Below are positions 28,288-56,747 of a stretch of 64,000 bases of DNA, piece after piece. The position numbers were made by a program, and so were the translations under genes. Position 1 is the stretch's first letter. The number at the start of each line of letters is the position of its first letter. The notes beneath the pieces were generated by a model. The model searched no databases. It saw only the letters and a list, made by a program, of their open reading frames with translations, and was not told the origin of the DNA. The stretch covers positions 248,001 through 312,000 of the forward strand of contig NZ_CP060694.1 in the NCBI RefSeq assembly GCF_014352935.1. The letters run 5' to 3'. This DNA comes from Aliarcobacter cryaerophilus (GTDB taxonomy: Bacteria > Campylobacterota > Campylobacteria > Campylobacterales > Arcobacteraceae).

Positions 28288-28336
28288 GGCTCTGATTTTA
28301 ATATAAAGATACTTAAGAAAGATTGATTTTGGTCAA
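28288..28336 (-). promoter_or_regulatory. petABC promoter with FNR-like box at -41.5
   Basis: Read on the minus strand, TTGAC-N4-ATCAA occupies 28336-28323 (centre 28329.5). The -10-like TAAAAT is at 28300-28295, which implies a start at 28288 and a 30-base leader. The box centre is then exactly at -41.5, the class II activator position of FNR/CRP proteins. A TATATT five bases upstream is an alternative -10 and would shift the centre to about -36.5. The geometry matches the nap promoter. Confidence 0.6.
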
Positions 28337-46011: not shown

Positions 46012-46386
46012 TTATTTTACAAAAACCTTTGTGTCATATAGTTTTCCATCTATAAAAACTTCAAAATACCCTTTTTGTACATCTAAATGTTTAAAAGTTA
46101 GTTCATATCCAAATATCTTTTTTGTTAAATTGTTGTAAAGAGTCTCTGTATGTATTAATTTTCCATTTGAGTTATTTATTTTTGTTGTTACATTTACATT
46201 TTTATTGTAATTTCCTATTATGGCAACTTTGAAGAAAACTTCACCTCTATATTGAAAATCTGTTTTTATTTTATGTTGCACATTTTCAACTCTATTTTTA
46301 TCATAAACTGCTACTAAAAATGCTTTTTGTATATCGCTTGAATTTAAAAAAGTAAAACTAAAGAAAATAAATAATAATTTTTTCAT
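46012..46386 (-). CDS. small exported protein of unknown function
   Basis: A 124-residue protein starting at the ATG at 46386, with a signal peptide (MKKLLFIFFSFTFLNSSD). The mature part (VEVFF-type beta strands, FFKVAIIGNYNKNVNV, YFEVFIDGKLYD) looks all-beta, perhaps immunoglobulin-like; I recognise no family. Its ATG overlaps the stop of the upstream PAS-GGDEF-EAL gene by 4 bases (ATGA), so its production is tied to that signalling protein. That suggests a surface or envelope output, but nothing in the sequence proves it. Confidence 0.65.
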   Translation of the reverse strand: MKKLLFIFFSFTFLNSSDIQKAFLVAVYDKNRVENVQHKIKTDFQYRGEVFFKVAIIGNYNKNVNVTTKINNSNGKLIHTETLYNNLTKKIFGYELTFKHLDVQKGYFEVFIDGKLYDTKVFVK

Positions 46387-48008
46387 ACCAAAGTTTCTGG
46401 TTTTCCTATATGATAACCTTGTGCACAACTAATTCCTATCTCTTTTATTGTTTGTAATATCTTTTCATCACTTACAAATTCAGCAACTGTTTTAATTCCA
46501 ATTCTTCTTGCAAAACTAACTATTGTTTCAACAATTAATCTATGTTTATCATCTGTAACTATATTTTTTATTAAAGAACCATCAATTTTAATATAATCAA
46601 CATCTAATCTTAAAAGATGTTCAAAATTTGAATATCCCGTTCCAAAATCATCTATAGCGATTCTTGCACCCAAAGATTTTATCTGATTGATAAAAGAGAT
46701 AACTTCTTGATAGTTTTCTATACCTTCTGACTCTAAAATCTCAAAAGTTACTCTTCTTGAAGTGTTTGTCTCTTTTATAGTTTTTAATATAAAATCAACA
46801 GTTTCTAAATCTTTTATATCATCAACGCTTAAATTTATAGAGAAGTTTTCATCTCTATTTTGGAATGTTTTACAAGCTTGGGTTACAACTATTTTTGTGA
46901 TACTTGAGTATAGTTTTATTTTTTTAGAAAAATCTAGAAATTTATATGGAGCAAGAGAGTTCCCTTTGTTATCTATAAGTCTTACTAAACTCTCATAAGA
47001 GTAAATTTCACTATTTTCTATATTTAAAAGAGGTTGATAATGACAAATAATTCTATTTCCTAAAATTGCCTCTTTTATCTGAGTTGCAAGTTCAATATTC
47101 TCTTTATATCTCTCTTCTATATTTTTACTCTCTTCGTAAATACAGATATGATTATTTGAAGTTTTTGCATTATTTACCGCAATATCAACTTTTGTTAAAA
47201 GTTTTTCATCACTTTTTGCAATACCAATAGAAAATGTAATTAAAATTGTTTTATCATCAATATAAAAAGGTTCACTATCTAATAAATCTATAATTTTAAT
47301 TGCTTCATTTTGTAACTCTTCTTCTGATTTTTCATCAAAAAATAAAATAGCAAATTCATCACCATCTATTCTATATGCTGTGTATCCATATTTTATAAAT
47401 CTTAAAGCTATATCTTGTAATATTTTATCGGCATTATTTGTACCAAAGAAGTCATTTACCTCTTTAAAATCATCAATATTAAAAACAATAGAAGATTTAG
47501 CTTTTTTATTTTCAATATCTAAAATAATTTTTTGTCTATTTGGAAGAGATGTTAGTTGGTCAAAATACATAAGATATTCATTTCTCTCTTTTAAAAGAAT
47601 CTGTTCTGTAATATCTCTTGCAGTTCCTATTACACCAATTAAATTTTTATTTTCATCAAAAAATGGAGCTTTATCAACTTCAAGATATGTCATTTTCCCT
47701 TGAATATTTCCATTTTCTAAAAATCTTAATGGTCTCATATATTTTATAGTTTCTAAATCAGTATTAGCACATAACTCTCCAAATGTATGCCAATTTTTAT
47801 TATCTTTATTTTTTTCTCTTTCTCTTAAAGCGAAAAAGATATCAGTTTTTCCAATAACTTCATCAGGAGTTGCAATTAGTAAGCCATTACAAATAGCATT
47901 ATTTGCATATAAATAACGACCATTTAAATCTTTTATCCATAACATATCAGGAGAGTGTTTAGAAATTAAGCTAAGAAGAGTATCCGAGTTTATAGTGTTT
48001 TTTTTCAT
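46383..48008 (-). CDS. PAS-GGDEF-EAL cyclic-di-GMP signalling protein
   Basis: A 541-residue cytoplasmic protein with no membrane helices. Residues about 10-135 are a PAS domain (MLWIKDLNGRYLYANNAIC ... IGVIGTARDITEQ). A GGDEF domain follows, with the signature changed to DGDEF (215-219). The EAL domain begins about 308; its signature is ESL (339-341) and it keeps DDFGTGYSNFEHL and the C-terminal QGYHIGKP. The glutamate and the loop-6 aspartates are kept, so phosphodiesterase activity is likely; the DGDEF half is less certain. A clear TATAAT lies upstream. It is just downstream of nap but has its own promoter. Confidence 0.9.
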   Translation of the reverse strand: MKKNTINSDTLLSLISKHSPDMLWIKDLNGRYLYANNAICNGLLIATPDEVIGKTDIFFALREREKNKDNKNWHTFGELCANTDLETIKYMRPLRFLENGNIQGKMTYLEVDKAPFFDENKNLIGVIGTARDITEQILLKERNEYLMYFDQLTSLPNRQKIILDIENKKAKSSIVFNIDDFKEVNDFFGTNNADKILQDIALRFIKYGYTAYRIDGDEFAILFFDEKSEEELQNEAIKIIDLLDSEPFYIDDKTILITFSIGIAKSDEKLLTKVDIAVNNAKTSNNHICIYEESKNIEERYKENIELATQIKEAILGNRIICHYQPLLNIENSEIYSYESLVRLIDNKGNSLAPYKFLDFSKKIKLYSSITKIVVTQACKTFQNRDENFSINLSVDDIKDLETVDFILKTIKETNTSRRVTFEILESEGIENYQEVISFINQIKSLGARIAIDDFGTGYSNFEHLLRLDVDYIKIDGSLIKNIVTDDKHRLIVETIVSFARRIGIKTVAEFVSDEKILQTIKEIGISCAQGYHIGKPETLV

Positions 48009-48097: not shown

Positions 48098-48484
48098 TTA
48101 TTTTTTACTATTATCAAACTCTTTTGCAAAACCTATTAAATCTTTTCTTTTTAAATCACCTCTATAAACTATATCTTCAACTTTTATATCTTTATCATTT
48201 AAAACTTTTGGAACTAAATCAGCATTTTCTAAAACTTCCATATGATTTGATAGCTCTTCTTCACTATAACTCATCTGCATATCAGCACTACTTACATAAG
48301 GAATTGCCTCAATTACTTTTAGTTTTTTTAGTTCCTCTTCTACATTTTTACCTTCAATTGTAATAATAATTCTACCTTTTTCATCATGCATATGATAATC
48401 ACAAACGCCAGATTTTTTAAGATTTTCTATCACACTATCAAGATATTTTGGTAAAGTTTGTACAACAATACTTGAAATATTCAT
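48098..48484 (-). CDS. napD: periplasmic nitrate reductase chaperone NapD
   Basis: NapD binds the Tat signal peptide of NapA in the cytoplasm and holds back export until the molybdenum cofactor is in place. The N-terminal 80 residues match the small ferredoxin-like NapD fold (MNISSIVVQTLPKYLDSVIENLKKSGVCDYHMHDEKGRIIITIEG). At 128 residues it is longer than E. coli NapD and has a charged C-terminal tail, as in Campylobacter. It is last in the operon, 2 bases from napL. Confidence 0.9.
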   Translation of the reverse strand: MNISSIVVQTLPKYLDSVIENLKKSGVCDYHMHDEKGRIIITIEGKNVEEELKKLKVIEAIPYVSSADMQMSYSEEELSNHMEVLENADLVPKVLNDKDIKVEDIVYRGDLKRKDLIGFAKEFDNSKK

Positions 48485-48486
48485 TT

Positions 48487-49449
48487 TTAATCCTTTTTTA
48501 AATTGTATATATTTACTTTTTTATCATCACTTGCTACAACTAAACTATTTTCATCTAAAAACAAAATAGATGTAATAAGTGCATTATTTCCTTTTAGGAT
48601 AAAAAGCTCCTCTTTTGTATCTACATCAAAAACTAAAACATCATTATCTTCATTTAGTGAAATTGCTGCTTTTTTTGCTTTATCATCTAAAGCTCCTGCA
48701 TAAACTAAAAAATCAATTGATTTGTAGTATGGCTTTTTTTGATTTTTGTAATAAATAGATGCTCTTCTATCTTGCCCGCAAGCTAAAATAGTATTTTCTT
48801 TGAAATCAACTTGAAAAACTCTATCTACATTTTGACCTTTAAATTGTCCAATTTTTTCTAAGTTTGAAGTGTTGAATTCTGAAATAATTCCACTTTCATC
48901 AGCTACAAAAATAGATTTTTTATCACTACTTAAAACAAAATGAGAAAAAGATGATTGAGAAACTTGAGTTGATTTTAAGATTTTTTTGTTTATCAAATCA
49001 TATATAAATATCTGATTTGATAAAAGAGCATAGACTATTTTATTATCATCTAAGAATTTTGAATAAGCTATAAAAAGTCTCTCATCTGAACTAATTATAT
49101 TTTCTAAAATACCATTTTTTGATATAAAAATATCTCTTCCTCCACTTTGTCCTTGTGATAAAATTAAAATCTTATCATCAATTATATCTGTGCTAAAGAT
49201 TTTTGCACTTATCTCTTTATTTGTAAAATCTTTTATATTTTTAATTTTTATTGAAGATATTATCTCTTTTTTTTCAAGGTTAAAAATATCAACAAAGCCA
49301 TCATTTGTTGCTAAATATAGATTTTGTTTATCTTTTGCAATGTTTGTAACTCCACTTGATGCAAAAAAAGAGAAAGTTGCTTCTAACTCTTTTGCAAATA
49401 AAAAGTTTGAGCTAAAAATAAAAATAAGTGTAAAAATTAAGTTTTTCAA
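48487..49449 (-). CDS. napL: NapL-like periplasmic beta-propeller protein
   Basis: NapL is a nap accessory protein found in Campylobacterota; its exact role is unclear. I place the start at the TTG at 49449, giving a signal peptide (MKNLIFTLIFIFSSNFLFAKE) with AGGA six bases upstream at the napF stop. The 320-residue protein has repeated WD40-like blades (LATNDGFVDIFNLEKKEI, VADESGIISEFNTSNLEKIG, VASDDKKVNIYNLKKD). Position and fold match NapL of Campylobacter jejuni. Confidence 0.8.
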   Translation of the reverse strand: MKNLIFTLIFIFSSNFLFAKELEATFSFFASSGVTNIAKDKQNLYLATNDGFVDIFNLEKKEIISSIKIKNIKDFTNKEISAKIFSTDIIDDKILILSQGQSGGRDIFISKNGILENIISSDERLFIAYSKFLDDNKIVYALLSNQIFIYDLINKKILKSTQVSQSSFSHFVLSSDKKSIFVADESGIISEFNTSNLEKIGQFKGQNVDRVFQVDFKENTILACGQDRRASIYYKNQKKPYYKSIDFLVYAGALDDKAKKAAISLNEDNDVLVFDVDTKEELFILKGNNALITSILFLDENSLVVASDDKKVNIYNLKKD

Positions 49450-49457
49450 AACAAATC

Positions 49458-49937
49458 CTATGCTATTTTGATTGCATTTGTTGGGCATACTTTTATACAA
49501 AAGCCACAAGAACTGCAATTTTGATTTATAGTTGGTCTAAACATTCCTAAAAAATCTATTGCATTTTCCAAGCAAGGATCTTTACATGAAAAACACATAG
49601 TATTTTGCCAAGATAGGCATGTTAGAACATCAATCTCTATTTTAGCTTCTATTTGCTTTTTATCTTCAATATTTAAAACACCATTTTGACAAGAAATTGC
49701 ACATAAGTCACAATAAGTACAACCAGAATTTGAAAAATTTATTTTTGGAGTACCATCTTCTAAAATCTCTATAATATTTTCTTCACAAGAAGTCGAACAA
49801 GGTTTTTCTAGACATTCCAAACATTTTGTAAAAAAAAGATTTATATCTTTAAAGTAGGGTGGTCTTATAGCTTTTTCTTGCAAACTTCTATTTTTAAAAG
49901 GTTTTGCAAGAGAGCCAAAAAGCTCTCTTCTTTGCAT
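49458..49937 (-). CDS. napF: NapF-like ferredoxin-type protein
   Basis: NapF is a cytoplasmic iron-sulfur protein linked to NapA maturation. The 159-residue protein has several cysteine groups: CLECLEKPCSTSC, CTYCDLCAISC, CFSCKDPC, and the classic CSSCGFCIKVCPTNAI at the C-terminus, so up to four [4Fe-4S]-type sites, with the first three partly degenerate. The MQRRELFGSLAKPF start is typical of NapF. It starts 1 base after napB. Campylobacter jejuni lacks this gene from its operon; Arcobacter-like bacteria have it. Confidence 0.88.
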   Translation of the reverse strand: MQRRELFGSLAKPFKNRSLQEKAIRPPYFKDINLFFTKCLECLEKPCSTSCEENIIEILEDGTPKINFSNSGCTYCDLCAISCQNGVLNIEDKKQIEAKIEIDVLTCLSWQNTMCFSCKDPCLENAIDFLGMFRPTINQNCSSCGFCIKVCPTNAIKIA

Positions 49938-49938
49938 A

Positions 49939-50541
49939 CTATTTTACACCCTCATTTATAGTTTCTATAAGATTTGATTTATCATTTAAATCACTACTTC
50001 TAAACTCTGTTTGGAAGTTATTTTTTGGAACAATTTTACTATCAGATTGTGGTGCATGACAAGCAGAACAGTTAAATCTAGCATTTGATAAGTGATCAAG
50101 AGGTTTTATAATAGTTTTTAAATCACTACTATTTGCTACAACTTTTCCATCTCTTTGAAGTTCACCTTTTTTATCTATATTTACATCTTCTCTAAAACTT
50201 GTAAAATGTGATTTTGGAATAGGAGTTGCGCCCATAGATTCTGCAACCATTGGGTCATGACAAGAAGTACATTGGTTATTATCTATTGTAATAGGTAACA
50301 TTCCTTCTGTATCATGTGGAATCATAGGTGGAGCATTTTCAAATGCTCTTTTTATTTTTGTACTAGTTCCTGCAGGTTCTGTAGAATATTTTGTCTCATC
50401 ACTTACAACTTTATCTTCTGAAAATAGATTATCTTGTCTAATTCCAAGAGATTCATCTTTTATACTCTTATTTGCAGCATAAGCAAAAGTAAAAAGTGTT
50501 GCAATGGCAACTAGACTTAAAGCTAATTTTTTTAATTTCAT
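49939..50541 (-). CDS. napB: periplasmic nitrate reductase diheme cytochrome NapB
   Basis: NapB is the small diheme c-type cytochrome that passes electrons to NapA in the periplasm. Signal peptide about 1-22 (LALSLVAIATLFTFAYA). The two heme sites are CTSCH near residue 91 and CSACH near residue 157, with IPHDTEGM and IPKSHFTS supplying the likely distal histidines. The 200 residues are normal. The start overlaps napH by 4 bases. Confidence 0.95.
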   Translation of the reverse strand: MKLKKLALSLVAIATLFTFAYAANKSIKDESLGIRQDNLFSEDKVVSDETKYSTEPAGTSTKIKRAFENAPPMIPHDTEGMLPITIDNNQCTSCHDPMVAESMGATPIPKSHFTSFREDVNIDKKGELQRDGKVVANSSDLKTIIKPLDHLSNARFNCSACHAPQSDSKIVPKNNFQTEFRSSDLNDKSNLIETINEGVK

Positions 50542-51341
50542 TTTTTCTCCTTCATATAATTTCTTAATTCGAAATTTAGTGCATCATCTTCACAAACTTC
50601 AATACATCTAGCACATAAAGTACACTCTTGTAAAACAGGTTCGCTACTTTTATCTATCATATGTAAAACTTGAATTTCAGGGCAAACAACTTTGCATTTC
50701 ATACAAGCAGTACATTTTTCACTATTATGATGAACTCTTAATAGACTAAATCTTCCAATTAGTGAATAAAATCCACCAAGAGGACAAATATGTCCACACC
50801 AACCATTTTTTAAAACAAACAGGTCAAACAAAAATATTACAATCATTGTTGCAAGTCCAAATCCAAGTCCAAAGATTAAACCTCTGTGAACCATTGATAC
50901 AGGAGAAATCAACTCAAAAGCTGCAACGCCCATAAAATATGAGATTATAAAACTAATTAAAATTAGCCAATATCTTAAATTTCTAGTTGCTGGTTGTTTT
51001 TTTTGTACTTCATCAAATTTCAAAACTCTTCTTAGGTAATTTGCACAGTCTGTAATTATATTTACAGGACAAACCCAAGAGCAAAAAGCTCTTCCTCCAA
51101 GAATAAAGTAGAAAATTGAAATAATTAAAGCACCTAAAGCTATATCAAAAGAGATTATAGCTCCTGCAAAAATCATTTGTAAAACTGCAAAAGGGTCGCT
51201 TAGGGTAACAGTTTGTAAAACCAAAGAGCTACTTAAATTCCCCATTAATATATTTATTCCATAAATATTTGCCAAAATATATAAAGCTATAATAGAGAGT
51301 TGTGTAAATCTTCTAGCAATTAAAAATCTATATTTTTTCAT
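50538..51341 (-). CDS. napH: quinol dehydrogenase membrane subunit NapH
   Basis: NapH, with NapG, forms a quinol dehydrogenase for NapA that replaces NapC. The 267-residue protein has about five membrane helices, two CxxxCP motifs facing the cytoplasm (WVCPVN, CGHICPLGG), and two C-terminal [4Fe-4S] motifs (CTACMKCKVVCP and CTLCARCIEVC). The start overlaps napG by 4 bases. There is no napC in the operon, so NapGH must be the quinol route. Confidence 0.96.
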   Translation of the reverse strand: MKKYRFLIARRFTQLSIIALYILANIYGINILMGNLSSSLVLQTVTLSDPFAVLQMIFAGAIISFDIALGALIISIFYFILGGRAFCSWVCPVNIITDCANYLRRVLKFDEVQKKQPATRNLRYWLILISFIISYFMGVAAFELISPVSMVHRGLIFGLGFGLATMIVIFLFDLFVLKNGWCGHICPLGGFYSLIGRFSLLRVHHNSEKCTACMKCKVVCPEIQVLHMIDKSSEPVLQECTLCARCIEVCEDDALNFELRNYMKEKK

Positions 51342-52141
51342 TCTAATAAATCCTTCATATCGCTATTTAGTGACTCTATAGCACCTTTTTTATTTATTTT
51401 AGTTTTACCTAACTCAACATTTGAATCTTTAACTCTTTGTTCATCCGCTTCATCCCAACCTTTTATGTAGTGATCACCAACTTTTCCAAGTGCAATTTCT
51501 CGTGGAAGTACAAAAATTGCTGGTTTTTCAGTAATACAAGCTTTTTCACAAAGTCCACAACCTGTACAAATATCACTATCTACAACTGGTTTTAAAAATG
51601 CATGTTTACCTGTTCTTTCATTTTTTTCATATACTATATTTATAGCTTCTCCTAAAAGTGGACAAGCTCTATAACAAGCATCGCATTGAATTCCCCAAAA
51701 AGCTACACAAGATTTTACATCTACAACTGCAACTCCCATCTCCATTTGTCTTATTTCAAAAGCATTTTCACTATTTTTGACCTTTTTTTCATCTAATGCT
51801 TTTGTTGGACAAATTGGAACACATGGAATATCAACACACATATAACAAGGAATATCTCTTGGTACAAAATATGGAGTTCCCAAAGGTAAATTATCCCCTG
51901 GTTTTGCCAATTTTAGTGTATCAAAAGGGCATGCCTCTACACAAAGTCCACATTTTATACAAGTAGCCAAAAAGTCATCTTCTTTTAGGGCTGCTGGCGG
52001 TCGAAGTATTAAGTTACTAGCTTTTACTTCGCTTAAATATGCACTCCATGTTAAACTACCAAGCACCACTAAACCAATAGTTCTAGCACTTTTTAGAAGA
52101 AATTTTCTTCTATTTTCTTGATAGTTTTCTACTATATTCAT
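51338..52141 (-). CDS. napG: iron-sulfur quinol dehydrogenase component NapG
   Basis: NapG is a periplasmic protein with four [4Fe-4S] clusters. The N-terminus is a twin-arginine signal (NRRKFLLKSARTIGLVVLG). Cysteine groups follow: CIKCGLCVEACP, CYMCVDIPCVPICP, CVAFWGIQCDACYRACP and CTGCGLCEKAC. It works with NapH to move electrons from menaquinol to NapB/NapA. It lies 11 bases after napA and overlaps napH. Confidence 0.96.
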   Translation of the reverse strand: MNIVENYQENRRKFLLKSARTIGLVVLGSLTWSAYLSEVKASNLILRPPAALKEDDFLATCIKCGLCVEACPFDTLKLAKPGDNLPLGTPYFVPRDIPCYMCVDIPCVPICPTKALDEKKVKNSENAFEIRQMEMGVAVVDVKSCVAFWGIQCDACYRACPLLGEAINIVYEKNERTGKHAFLKPVVDSDICTGCGLCEKACITEKPAIFVLPREIALGKVGDHYIKGWDEADEQRVKDSNVELGKTKINKKGAIESLNSDMKDLLE

Positions 52142-52152
52142 CTATTTTTACC

Positions 52153-54963
52153 TTAAGCTTTATAAACTTTTACAGCACATTTTTTAAAGTCTGTTTGTCC
52201 TGATTGTGGACAAGTTGCATCTAAACAAACTTTGTTTATAAATACCTTCTCATCAAACCAAGGAACATATACCAATCCTCTTGAAGGTCTATTTCTTCCT
52301 CTTGTTTCAACTCTTGCTTTTACTTTTCCTCTTCTTGATTCAACCCAAGCTAACTCACCTTGTTTTACCCCGTATTTTATAGCATCTTCAGGGTGCATAT
52401 AACAAAGTGCTTCAGGAACTGCTCTATAAAGTTCTGGAACTCTCATAGTCATAGTTCCACTATGCCAGTGCTCTAGTACTCTTCCAGTACTTAACCAAAC
52501 TGGATATTGCTCATCTGGCATTTCAGGTGGATCCATATATGGACGTGCGAAAATTTTAGCTTTATTTTTTAGAGATTTTTTAGCTTGATCTTTAACTCCA
52601 AGCAGGTCACCTTGAGCCAACTCTTTTGCTAATGTTCCATAGAAAGCAAAATCACTATTTGGATTTGCCATTTTTGCATATGGATCATATTTTGTATTAA
52701 ATCTCCATGATGTCTCTTTCCCATCTACAACTGGCCATTTAAGACCTCTAACTCTATGATAAGTGTCAAAATCAGCTAAATCGTGGGCATGTCCTCTTCC
52801 AAAATCTGCATACTCTTCAAATAGATATTTTTGTATAAAGAATCCATAACCTTTCCATGGTTTTCCATCACTTCCTAAAACATTTCTACTATCACCAAAT
52901 GCTTCAGTATTATCATATCCAGCTTGAATTTCATCTTTTTGGTCTGCTTTATATGATTTTGCTCTATCATTTGCAAATAAAATCTCATACATAGTTGTAT
53001 TTTCATTGTATCCCATAGCTTTTGCTGCTTCTATAAGGCTAGGAAGTTTAGTTTCATTGTTTGTACTTAAAAGAGCTTGTTCTCCCCAAACATCTTTTAC
53101 AGTAAATCTTTTTGATAATTCAACCCATTGCCAAGTATCACTCATAGCATCTCCAACTGGAATAACTTGTTGTCTCCAAAGTTGAGTTCTTCTTTCAGCA
53201 TTTCCATATCCACCCCATTTTTCATAAATCATAGCAGAAGGTAAGATAAGGTCAGATACTTTTGCACTAATTCCAGGATATCCATCACTTGTAACAATAA
53301 AGTTATCCATTTCTCTAGCAGCTTTTATCCAGTGAGTAGCACTTGCTGTATCTTGGTATGGATTACAAACATTTACCCAAGCAAATTTAATATTTCCATC
53401 CTCAATATCTCTATGAATTTTCATAATATGTTGAGTACCTTTTGGATTTAAAGTATTGTTAGGAATATTCCATGCTTTTTCTGTAATTTCTCTATGTTTT
53501 GGATTCTCAACCATCATATCTGCTGGAAGTCTGTGTGTAAATGTACCTACTTCTCTCGCTGTTCCACAAGCACTAGGTTGTCCTGTAAGTGAAAACGCTC
53601 CACTTCCTGGTTTTGCTTGTTTATTTAGTAAGAAGTGAACGTTGTATGAAAGTGTATTTACCCAAGTTCCCCTTGTATGTTGATTCATTCCCATAGTCCA
53701 GAAACTTACAACTTTTCTATCTTTTTCAATATACCAATCTGCTAATTGTTGAAGTTTTTTCTTAAATTCTTCAATATCTTCATCAGGATTTCCTTTTGAG
53801 ATTTTTGCAACATAATCTAAAGTATAAGGTTCTAGAGATTTTTTATACTCTTCAAAGCTAATCTCCCAGTGAGCAAGACCAGCATTTTTATTTACCATTT
53901 TATCACCAGCTTTATATCCATAAGGAGCAAGAGCAGGAGCCTCAGTTTCAGAAACAACTTTCTCCATCTCTTTAGAGATTATTTCCATTTCAGCTTTAGA
54001 GTATTTCCCATCTTTTATTGATTTTTCATCAGATTTTCTCATACCATAACCAATATTTACAGGGCTTGCTGCAAATACTATGTGCTCTTTAACGAAATCC
54101 CAATCAATAGCTTCTGGTTTATTGTAAACAATCTCTCTTGCTATATAGTTCCATAAAGCTAAATCTGTATTTGGAGTAAAGATAATTTCTAAATCAGCAA
54201 TATCAGAAGTTCTGTGTCTGTAAGTTGAAATATTTATTACTTTAACTCTATCTGGATTACTTAATTTTCTATCTGTTACCCTTGACCATAAAATAGGGTG
54301 CATTTCTGCCATATTTGAACCCCAACAAACAACTGTGTCTGTTAGTTCAATATCATCATAGCAACCACTTGGCTCATCAATACCAAATGTTTGATAAAAA
54401 CCAACAACTGCACTCGCCATACAGTGTCTTGCATTTGGATCAATAGCATTTGATCTAAATCCAGCTTTCATCATTTTTAAAGCTGCATAACCTTCCATAA
54501 TTGTGTGTTGTCCACTTGCAAATACAGCAACTCCTTCAGGACCTTTCTCTTTTAGTGCAATTTTGATATGTTTTTCCATCTCATCAAATGCTCTTTTCCA
54601 AGAAACAGGAGCGAAATCACCTTTTTTATCAAATTCACCTTTTTTATTTACTCTTAAAAGTGGAGTTTTAAGTCTATCAGCTCCATACATAATTTTTGCA
54701 TTAAAGTAACCTTTTATACAGTTAAGACCTCTGTTAACTGGAGCTGCTGGATCTCCCTTAACGGCAACAATTTTCCCCTCTTTTGTTGCAAGCATAATTC
54801 CACAACCTGTTCCACAAAATCTACAGGCTGCTTTATCCCAACGCCAACCACTCTCAGCAGTATTTGCTTGTGCTTTTAAGTCTGTTGGTACACTCATACC
54901 AATAGCTGCTGCTGCACTTGCCGCCGCTGAACTTTTTAGAAAATCTCTTCGTGAAAGTGACAT
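52153..54963 (-). CDS. napA: periplasmic nitrate reductase catalytic subunit NapA
   Basis: NapA reduces nitrate to nitrite in the periplasm, using a bis-MGD molybdenum cofactor and one [4Fe-4S] cluster. The 936-residue protein starts with a Tat signal ([19 protein letters not shown]). The cluster motif is [12 protein letters not shown]...GLNCIKGYF, and the Mo-ligand cysteine is in [10 protein letters not shown] near residue 179. It is the longer Campylobacterota form with insertions relative to E. coli. It is first in napA-G-H-B-F-L-D and has GGAG upstream and an FNR-like box 71 bases before the ATG. Confidence 0.98.
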
Positions 54964-54992: not shown

Positions 54993-55048
54993 CGATAAGA
55001 TATTACTATGAAGTAGATATAAAAAGTTTGACCGATGTCAAACTTTTT
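54993..55048 (-). promoter_or_regulatory. nap promoter with symmetric FNR-like box at -41.5
   Basis: On the minus strand, TTGAC-N4-GTCAA (55028-55041, centre 55034.5) lies inside a longer perfect dyad with 12-base arms (55021-55032 and 55037-55048). A -10-like TAATAT is at 55005-55000, implying a start at 54993 and a 30-base leader with GGAG. The box centre falls exactly at -41.5 (class II activation). The same dyad, with AAAAA/TTTTT ends, could also terminate the sensor gene transcript that ends 39 bases upstream. Confidence 0.7.
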
Positions 55049-55086: not shown

Positions 55087-56085
55087 TTAGCTCTTTTTTT
55101 CTGCAAAAAGTATAATTTTTTCAAGTTCATTTTTAAGTTCATTTAATCTTTTACTTGAGTGAAGAAGTTGTTCTTGAGTTTGTATTGCAATATCTTCACT
55201 TTTATTTAGCTGCTTTGATATTTCACTTTTATTTTGAAGTTCATTAATAATTTCATCAAACTCATTTGAGATCTCTTCTAGTTTATAAGAGGCATTTTTT
55301 GATTGTTCTAGCGCACTATTTGAGTCAATTATTGCACTATTTATTTTATTTAAAAATCTATTGAATATATTTGAAGCCTCTATTAGTTCACCCTCAGCTT
55401 CAATTTTTATAGGTTTTAAAGGCTCTTCTAAATTTTGTTCCATAACTTTTTTTGACTCTTCTATAAATTTTAGAGCATTTTTTTCCATAGTTTTTAATTC
55501 AATAACACTATAAATAATTAAAAATAGAATTAAAATTGCAAAAAAGTATTGGCTATTTTTCAGAAATCTTATTTTTTGTTCACTGTTTATCGTGTGAAGA
55601 CTAACTAGTGCATCTACTTCATAAAGAAGTTCTGGATTTGTTTCATATATTATATTTACAATATTTTGCAACTCTTTTTGGTTGGTATTATTATTATGTA
55701 TTAACTCTTTGAATTTAACTATATTTTGATAGAAAATTGACCATAAATATTCTATTTGTAACATTTGTCTATCTATTTGAATATTTGGAGCTTCTTTTAA
55801 TTTTCCTAAACTATTTCCACCTTTTAAACTTTCAAGATTATATATAAACTCTTCAATACTAGAGTCTAGCTCATTTTGTGAAGAGTTTGGATTTAAATAT
55901 AAGTAGAAAATATTTTTTGAAATATTTTGTGTAAGCATTCTTTGCTTACCTGCAATATTTATAATCATTGCATCTTTTTCATTTTTATTATTTAAGTAAA
56001 TAGTGGTTGCAATAATACTTGTCATTAGAAGAGCAAAAAGTATTCCAATGATTTTGATTTTTGTACTAATATTACCTTTTTTCAT
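55087..56085 (-). CDS. membrane sensor with NarX/PilJ-like P-box domain, no kinase
   Basis: A 332-residue protein with TM1 (about 11-30), a periplasmic helical domain, TM2 (about 179-196), and a cytoplasmic coiled coil (about 200-325). Right after TM1 is DAMIINIAGKQRMLTQNIS (38-56), which matches the P-box of nitrate sensors NarX/NarQ and the related PilJ N-terminal domain. The cytoplasmic part has no H-box, no kinase ATP site, and no chemoreceptor tip, so output must go another way. The ATG overlaps the stop of the Crp/Fnr gene (ATGA), and nap lies downstream. Nitrate as ligand is inference. Confidence 0.8.
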   Translation of the reverse strand: MKKGNISTKIKIIGILFALLMTSIIATTIYLNNKNEKDAMIINIAGKQRMLTQNISKNIFYLYLNPNSSQNELDSSIEEFIYNLESLKGGNSLGKLKEAPNIQIDRQMLQIEYLWSIFYQNIVKFKELIHNNNTNQKELQNIVNIIYETNPELLYEVDALVSLHTINSEQKIRFLKNSQYFFAILILFLIIYSVIELKTMEKNALKFIEESKKVMEQNLEEPLKPIKIEAEGELIEASNIFNRFLNKINSAIIDSNSALEQSKNASYKLEEISNEFDEIINELQNKSEISKQLNKSEDIAIQTQEQLLHSSKRLNELKNELEKIILFAEKKS

Positions 56086-56747
56086 ATTGCTACCCCTTTA
56101 AAAATAGAATTTAATGCAATCTCATCTTTTATTATAACTTGTTGATTTTCAATTTCAATGATATTATCCCTTGATAATTTTTTTAAAACTCTTGATAGAG
56201 TTTCAGGTTGAATATGCAGCATAAAACTAACATCTTGCCTTTTTAATTTATTAAACATATTTAAATCACTAACTAACATATAAGCAACTTTTGCAGTTGC
56301 ATCAAAAACCAACTCCCTATTTACTAAAGATTGAAGTTGATTAGTTTTTTTTAATAAAGAGTTCATAAGCTCTTTTACTAGAAGATTGTTGTTTAAAAAA
56401 TGCTCTTGAAGTTTTAAAAAATCTATTGATAAAACAACAGAATCTTCTATAAAAGATGCATTTGAGAAACAGAATATTTCGTTTGTATTGATATTACTTA
56501 ATTCACTTATTAAAGAGTTTGAATAAATGTGATATAAAAATATTTCGTTATCAAATTTATCATATTTATAAATTTTTATTAAACCACTCACTAAAAAAAG
56601 AAGATTTGTTTTCAAATCAGTTTCATAAAATAAAATAGAATCTTTTTCATATTTCGAAATAAAAGAGAAGTTGCTTAAAACATCAATTTGTTCATCACTT
56701 AAATTTTCAAAAAAATCCAAACTTCTAATGCTTTGGCTTAGTGTCAT
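56082..56747 (-). CDS. Crp/Fnr-family transcriptional regulator
   Basis: A 221-residue regulator with an N-terminal cyclic-nucleotide-binding-type domain and a C-terminal winged helix. The recognition helix contains PETLSRVLKKL (181-191), with the E-x-x-S-R of FNR (E182, S185, R186), which predicts binding to TTGA..TCAA half-sites. There is one cysteine (C93), so it cannot hold the FNR-type [4Fe-4S] cluster and is not an oxygen sensor of that kind. It is coupled to the P-box sensor gene and lies upstream of nap. Heme (as in DNR), a protein partner or a metabolite are possible signals. Confidence 0.9.
   Translation of the reverse strand: MTLSQSIRSLDFFENLSDEQIDVLSNFSFISKYEKDSILFYETDLKTNLLFLVSGLIKIYKYDKFDNEIFLYHIYSNSLISELSNINTNEIFCFSNASFIEDSVVLSIDFLKLQEHFLNNNLLVKELMNSLLKKTNQLQSLVNRELVFDATAKVAYMLVSDLNMFNKLKRQDVSFMLHIQPETLSRVLKKLSRDNIIEIENQQVIIKDEIALNSIFKGVAI

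Follow-up and report, generated by a model that had tools for sequence, protein, structure and literature searches.

A kinase-free P-box receptor paired with an NssA-type Crp/Fnr regulator beside nap in Campylobacterota: a candidate nitrate-sensing unit

What can a membrane protein with a nitrate-type P-box signal to when it carries no kinase? The question is raised by a locus of Aliarcobacter cryaerophilus, contained in a stretch of 64,000 nucleotides (contig NZ_CP060694.1, positions 248,001 to 312,000), hereafter the window. On the minus strand, the gene for a Crp/Fnr regulator of 221 amino acid residues (56082..56747) is followed by the gene for a transmembrane PilJ/P-box receptor of 332 residues (55087..56085) and then by the nap genes, from 54963 down to 48098. 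The regulator stop and the receptor start overlap as ATGA (56082..56085), and the same −4 overlap is found in most Arcobacteraceae pairs in a comparison of neighbourhoods. The first nap gene, napA (52153..54963), matches the NapA equivalogs PRK13532 and TIGR01706 (E 0) and is the likely direct target of the regulator. The remaining ORFs of the cluster (48098..52141) are napG, H, B, F, L and a D-like gene, so that the order in the window is napA-G-H-B-F-L-D, on the same strand as the pair, an order conserved in related loci. The initial annotation had described a two-gene unit joined by ATGA, with nap downstream and moaA on the other side; this layout holds, with the refinement that a trpD-like gene lies between the pair and moaA. 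The final nap gene (48098-48484, 128 residues) is a weak match to NapD (E 0.013) and is conserved in the nap clusters of the phylum. Just behind nap is a gene for a PAS-GGDEF-EAL protein (46383-48008), and many Sulfurimonas loci likewise have GGDEF-EAL genes next to the pair.

The receptor resembles the sensor kinases NarX and NarQ in its P-box, four-helix periplasmic domain, transmembrane helices and HAMP. Its features, all on the minus strand, are as follows. TM1 comprises residues ~10-31 (55993..56058) and TM2 residues ~178-199 (55489..55554); both are hydrophobic runs with approximate limits, within helices 6-64 and 136-216, respectively, of a structural model. Residues 30-133 (55687..55998) belong to the four-helix bundle of the periplasmic PilJ ligand-binding domain, which is recognised by Pfam as PF13675 (E 1.4e-17, 64.3 bits against a curated cut-off of 26.6). 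Residues 42-53 (55927..55962) form the P-box, or N-box, INIAGKQRMLTQ, which includes G46xxR49. The N-box of nitrate-binding PilJ domains was defined by Martin-Mora et al. as [IVL]-[ND]-x-A-G-x-Q-R-M-L-[ST]-Q (PMC6381276), a pattern that the window receptor matches perfectly, and GxxR is given as the nitrate-binding motif in a review of nitrate-sensing kinases (PMC8199190). The P-box that had been placed after TM1 is thus confirmed both by the PilJ match and by the published pattern. The chemoreceptor McpN (PA2788), whose PilJ domain shows the same N-box pattern and which is the best structural match (6gcv), binds nitrate via R61 (PMC6381276).

The resemblance to these proteins does not extend to the output. 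McpN feeds chemotaxis, whereas the window receptor has no MCP signalling domain over the cut-off in Pfam or NCBIfam. Neither is there a kinase, HATPase or DHp domain over the cut-off in these libraries, H-kinase_dim reaching only an E of 0.099, under its cut-off. In contrast to NarX and NarQ, the receptor shows no DHp/ATPase part, and a Crp/Fnr protein takes the place of the response regulator as its partner. A NarX/NarQ-type kinase cut by a frameshift is rejected, since the identical length recurs in dozens of genomes. The absence of a kinase or chemoreceptor domain, noted in the initial annotation, therefore stands; the description of the end of the protein as a plain coiled coil does not, since this tail bears a conserved signature that is taken up below.

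Structural comparisons agree with the domain assignment. A profile of 22 single-box receptors matches, among solved structures, PilJ (7zjr, 8wdf) and the ligand-binding domain of McpN (6gcv). An AlphaFold2 model of the receptor, made from 66 sequences (mean pLDDT 81.9, pTM 0.56), finds 6gcv as its best Foldseek match, with NarQ fragments next. In VIA-align, the model scores Z 16.4 against 6gcv (rmsd 2.4, 124 residues aligned) and Z 15.8 against NarQ 5iji over model residues 1-252, although unrelated helical bundles, which score high mutually, give similar Z in these comparisons. It follows that the argument is carried by the N-box and by the length of the NarQ match. After TM2, the model shows a HAMP-like part and then two helices of lower confidence, 232-283 and 287-330. 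In Wolinella and many other genomes, the receptor has about 460 residues and two boxes, and a model of the Wolinella form resembles the tandem PilJ structure 8wdf (Z 20.5). No second PilJ/P-box protein was found in genome G000.

The regulator has two domains over the Pfam cut-off, HTH_Crp_2 (E 1.3e-8) and cNMP_binding (E 2.1e-6). The HTH (PF13545, residues 167-213, 56109..56249, minus strand) includes HIQPETLSR, of which Q180, P181, T183, L184, S185 and R186 are invariant in 88 rows. The sole cysteine is C93; hence, there is no FNR-type four-cysteine cluster, and iron-sulphur sensing of the FNR type is rejected. A Crp/Fnr protein with ETLSR but without cluster cysteines is just what had been annotated. 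Its type can, however, be named. The Wolinella succinogenes genome in our sample (G166, identified through an NrfA identical to 1FS9 over 507 residues) encodes three strong Crp/Fnr proteins, with which the window regulator shares 45.1% (NssA-type), 31.4% (NssB-type) and 26.0% (NssC-type) identity. The nap-linked regulator encoded by Nitrosophilus labii has published identities of 44.8, 29.2 and 26.1% to NssA, NssB and NssC (PMC11539149). In three family-f8 genomes, the paired regulators give 45–47, 28–31 and 26–30% with the three W. succinogenes proteins, and the second, solo regulators of these genomes match the NssB pattern. Since these identities reproduce the published pattern, the nap-linked Wolinella gene is taken to be NssA, a name assigned by this match and not by locus tag. 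The same pair lies upstream of nap in W. succinogenes, where the receptor adjoins the NssA match only (L033), not NssB or NssC. In a tree of 134 regulators, 104 of them paired with a receptor, all but one of the paired rows (103/104) fall in a single clade with support of 100/98 and no solo Crp/Fnr protein within it; the row left outside belongs to a receptor that has a second regulator at its other side. The window regulator is an orthologue of NssA, judged by its identities and by the clade in which it groups with the nap-linked regulator of W. succinogenes. That is, it is of the Crp/Fnr type, as annotated, and belongs with a known nitrate-responsive activator rather than being of unknown type. 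Locus L147 has a regulator-receptor-regulator arrangement in which the second Crp/Fnr gene comes from an otherwise solo clade.

How constant is the pairing? Regulators (profile A5) and receptor tails (profile A6) were sought independently in 298 Campylobacterota genomes, which avoids the bias of a start from the receptor, and both searches gave a sharp score gap. Relatives of the receptor are present in 84 of the 298 genomes. When the searches are crossed, the receptor adjoins 83 of 86 NssA-clade regulators, and the regulator adjoins 83 of 84 receptors, the odd one lying at a contig start. Solo regulators beside napA, without a receptor, occur in two genomes (G009 and G260), and in a third (G274) the regulator has only a decayed receptor remnant; these three suggest that the regulator need not depend on the receptor. 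In a Helicobacteraceae locus (L254:7092-8184), a shortened regulator and nothing but a short C-terminal receptor remnant make up a decaying pair. Among the best 80 of 345 receptor relatives in a wider scan, those outside Campylobacterota have no such regulator beside them. Across the phylum the two genes make up a single unit, the receptor being co-inherited with one Crp/Fnr clade almost without exception.

The tie to nap is close in one direction. Of 76 genomes with the receptor, 75 also have napA, which is found in 249 of the full 298; the converse fails, as many napA genomes, including most napA-bearing Campylobacter and Helicobacter, are without the pair. By these counts, the receptor is not widespread in the phylum without the regulator or nap, which is the pattern that the initial annotation had named as refuting its reading. 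The association with nap is not exclusive, however. While the pair is mostly beside nap, it adjoins nosZ in Sulfurimonadaceae and in one of the Arcobacteraceae, a candidate COX1-type NO reductase and a cytochrome-d1 nitrite reductase in other Arcobacteraceae, nrfA in Sulfurospirillaceae, and unrelated genes in some loci.

A motif search places a palindromic box, TTGACATCGGTCAA, of the TTGA-N6-TCAA type, 64 bp before the napA ATG (55028..55041). Of 58 loci, 39 have a box of this type in the 250 bp ahead of napA, whereas shuffled sequences predict 0.8. The narrower form TTGAC-N4-GTCAA is found in 31 of 58 napA promoters with the pair adjacent, in all 12 nosZ promoters next to nosZ-linked pairs, in 3 of 20 cases in which the genome has the pair but carries nap at another place, and before napA in none of 20 genomes without the pair, contrasts between pair-bearing and pair-less sets that are inflated by species kinship. 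The looser TTGA-N6-TCAA precedes napA in 10 of the 20 pair-less genomes, which indicates that other Nss/Fnr proteins can share targets. Across genome G000, the loose pattern has 20 sites against 28 for a reversed control pattern, that is, no enrichment; since the loose pattern lacks genome-wide specificity, we give weight only to the fully symmetric core next to the pair. The napA box of the window is inside a longer perfect palindrome, AAAAAGTTTGAC ATCG GTCAAACTTTTT (55023-55047), which ends in T5 and, from its sequence, might also serve to terminate the transcript of regulator and receptor.

Our proposal is that the pair probably works as a unit for sensing nitrate: the receptor, kinase-free and similar to NarQ and McpN, would control the NssA-type Crp/Fnr activator without phosphorylation. 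Periplasmic nitrate would bind at the interface of the receptor dimer via R49, and the conformational signal would pass from TM2 through the HAMP to the C-terminal tail. The tail would touch NssA and change its availability or activity without phosphotransfer, and NssA would then bind the box before napA and turn nap on. The term "one-component", used in the initial annotation, is inexact for such a switch, which would be a two-protein system without phosphotransfer.

The receptor is, we suggest, the best candidate yet for how NssA detects nitrate, a step called unexplained for the Nss proteins (PMC8139620). The locus resembles the systems of W. succinogenes NssA, NssB and NssC and of Campylobacter jejuni NssR in the orthology of the regulator and in a box of the published TTGA-N6-TCAA type. 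It differs in that the literature consulted treats the Nss proteins alone, without mention of a dedicated receptor partner for NssA. In this mainly open-licence literature, reviews list only the Nss proteins, and we met no account of a P-box protein as the partner of NssA; the genes named around the nap-linked regulator in the legend of the Nitrosophilus labii gene map (PMC11539149) are likewise Crp/Fnr, PAS and hypothetical genes, with no sensor among them. The pairing of the P-box receptor with NssA therefore seems undescribed, though the founding paper (Kern and Simon 2016, PubMed 26395430) may mention a partner. For nitrate sensing by NssA, our results point to a specific neighbour gene, one also present in Wolinella succinogenes, in which nss mutants have been studied.

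In what sense would the receptor control NssA? We slightly prefer sequestration, in which NssA would be held at the membrane until nitrate arrives, over activation by contact. The preference comes from the few genomes that keep the regulator without the receptor and from Thermus, in which removal of DrpA/DrpB made the nitrate-respiration genes nitrate-independent (PMC6282519); both arguments are weak. The Thermus DnrS/DnrT and DrpA/DrpB proteins also offer a nitrate response without NarX/NarL, with kinase-free sensors beside a master regulator (PMC6282519), but DrpA/DrpB have no recognised nitrate motif or transmembrane segments, and there is no translationally coupled pair with a P-box receptor. 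If the receptor were instead a co-activator, NssA would be inactive without nitrate and activated by contact with the nitrate-bound receptor, and loss of the receptor would abolish induction rather than render it constitutive. A regulator dependent in this way would fit the near-absolute co-inheritance, and NssA is called an activator of nap on nitrate in reviews (PMC6682613). The three genomes that hold the regulator but not the receptor speak against it, as does, by analogy only, the nitrate-independent expression in Thermus, and we consider co-activation possible but on the whole unlikely.

The proposed control of NssA by the receptor requires an output, for which the tail is the candidate. 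Its signature, LNKSEDIAIQTQEQLLHSSKRLNELKNEL (residues ~293-321, 55123..55209, minus strand), lies in the last model helix (287-330), and E297, I301 and L321 are invariant in 66 partner sequences. The tail profile (A6) finds essentially only partners of the NssA clade, with one MCP overlap, and a limited structural comparison gave no clear match spanning the tail. Distances between regulators correlate with those between receptor tails (r 0.91; partial r 0.83 after NapA distance is removed, with 0 of 999 permutations as high). Mean-field DCA of regulator against tail (109 pairs, Meff 83) gave no coherent patch; the strongest couplings are in gap-rich and transmembrane columns, with an observed z of 12 against 7–9 for shuffled pairings. 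A second alternative is that the regulator senses a cytoplasmic signal of its own, such as NO or redox, and the receptor merely modulates it or acts otherwise, for example as a remnant chemoreceptor, so that the pair would be a transcription unit without direct signalling. The Nss proteins are indeed members of the Dnr-like Crp/Fnr group and have relatives that respond to NO, and the tail profile picks up MCPs weakly (E 1e-7 to 7e-14), which would fit a chemoreceptor as ancestor. Yet regulator and tail track one another beyond NapA, the pair persists while its neighbours vary among nap, nos, nor/nir, nrf and none of these, and the tail and regulator are kept where the nitrate site is lost, beside nosZ. 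We therefore regard a regulator with its own signal as improbable.

The nosZ-linked paralogues also speak to the ligand. The GxxRM motif is found in all 50 single-box receptors and in the first box of 43 of 46 tandem receptors, but in none of 13 nosZ-linked ones, although these all retain the tail motif along with the regulator and operator. In the nosZ-linked Sulfurimonadaceae pairs L051-L062, the nitrate motif is lost, whereas the tail, the regulator and TTGAC-N4-GTCAA before nosZ are kept. Since these forms lose the nitrate site and keep the tail and regulator, it would be the tail that speaks to the regulator, with the input exchangeable. As to what the nosZ-linked receptors bind, N2O is our guess. 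These paralogues are in effect a series of domain swaps made by nature, from which one could learn how the input is changed. In the Wolinella genome (L193), nosZ is split by a reverse-strand ORF of 396 residues, consistent with an insertion.

For the window receptor, a ligand other than nitrate, such as nitrite or another anion, or a P-box with a structural role only, has precedents: Pseudomonas PilJ has PilJ domains without an N-box and does not bind nitrate, and some P-box kinases sense nitrite too (PMC6381276). We think this quite improbable here, where the N-box is complete, GxxRM survives in 93 of 96 partners not linked to nosZ but in none of the 13 that are, and linkage is mostly to nap. 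HAMP receptors can work in mixed arrays, but that a kinase or chemotaxis protein encoded elsewhere, without linkage, takes up the signal of the receptor, with the regulator a bystander, is very unlikely given the receptor's lack of a Pfam-detectable transmitter domain and its one-to-one linkage with the regulator clade.

If the receptor does act on NssA directly, the large family of HAMP receptors would gain a phosphorylation-free output. We tentatively go further, to a reading that falls a little short of an even chance: the pairs may represent an unrecognised signalling class of HAMP-type receptors whose sole output is a conserved helical tail directly controlling a Crp/Fnr factor. The input would be exchangeable, as a single nitrate box, a tandem, or a nosZ-linked form perhaps reading another signal, and the tail, regulator clade and operator would be reused beside nap, nos, nor/nir and nrf. 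A nitrate signal also reaches gene control without a kinase in NasR, with its NIT and ANTAR domains, but NasR, as cited in PMC8199190, is a single cytoplasmic protein acting on RNA antitermination.

Boxes of the same kind occur away from nap. One, TTGACCAAAATCAA (28323-28336 of the window), is ~66 bp before the Rieske gene of a petABC (bc1) operon. In other parts of the genome, a small cytochrome c gene has a similar site 57 bp ahead of it (L219), and a further site immediately precedes the second Crp/Fnr gene (L209). From their sequences, the Rieske, small cytochrome c and second Crp/Fnr sites are possible further targets of Nss-type regulators.
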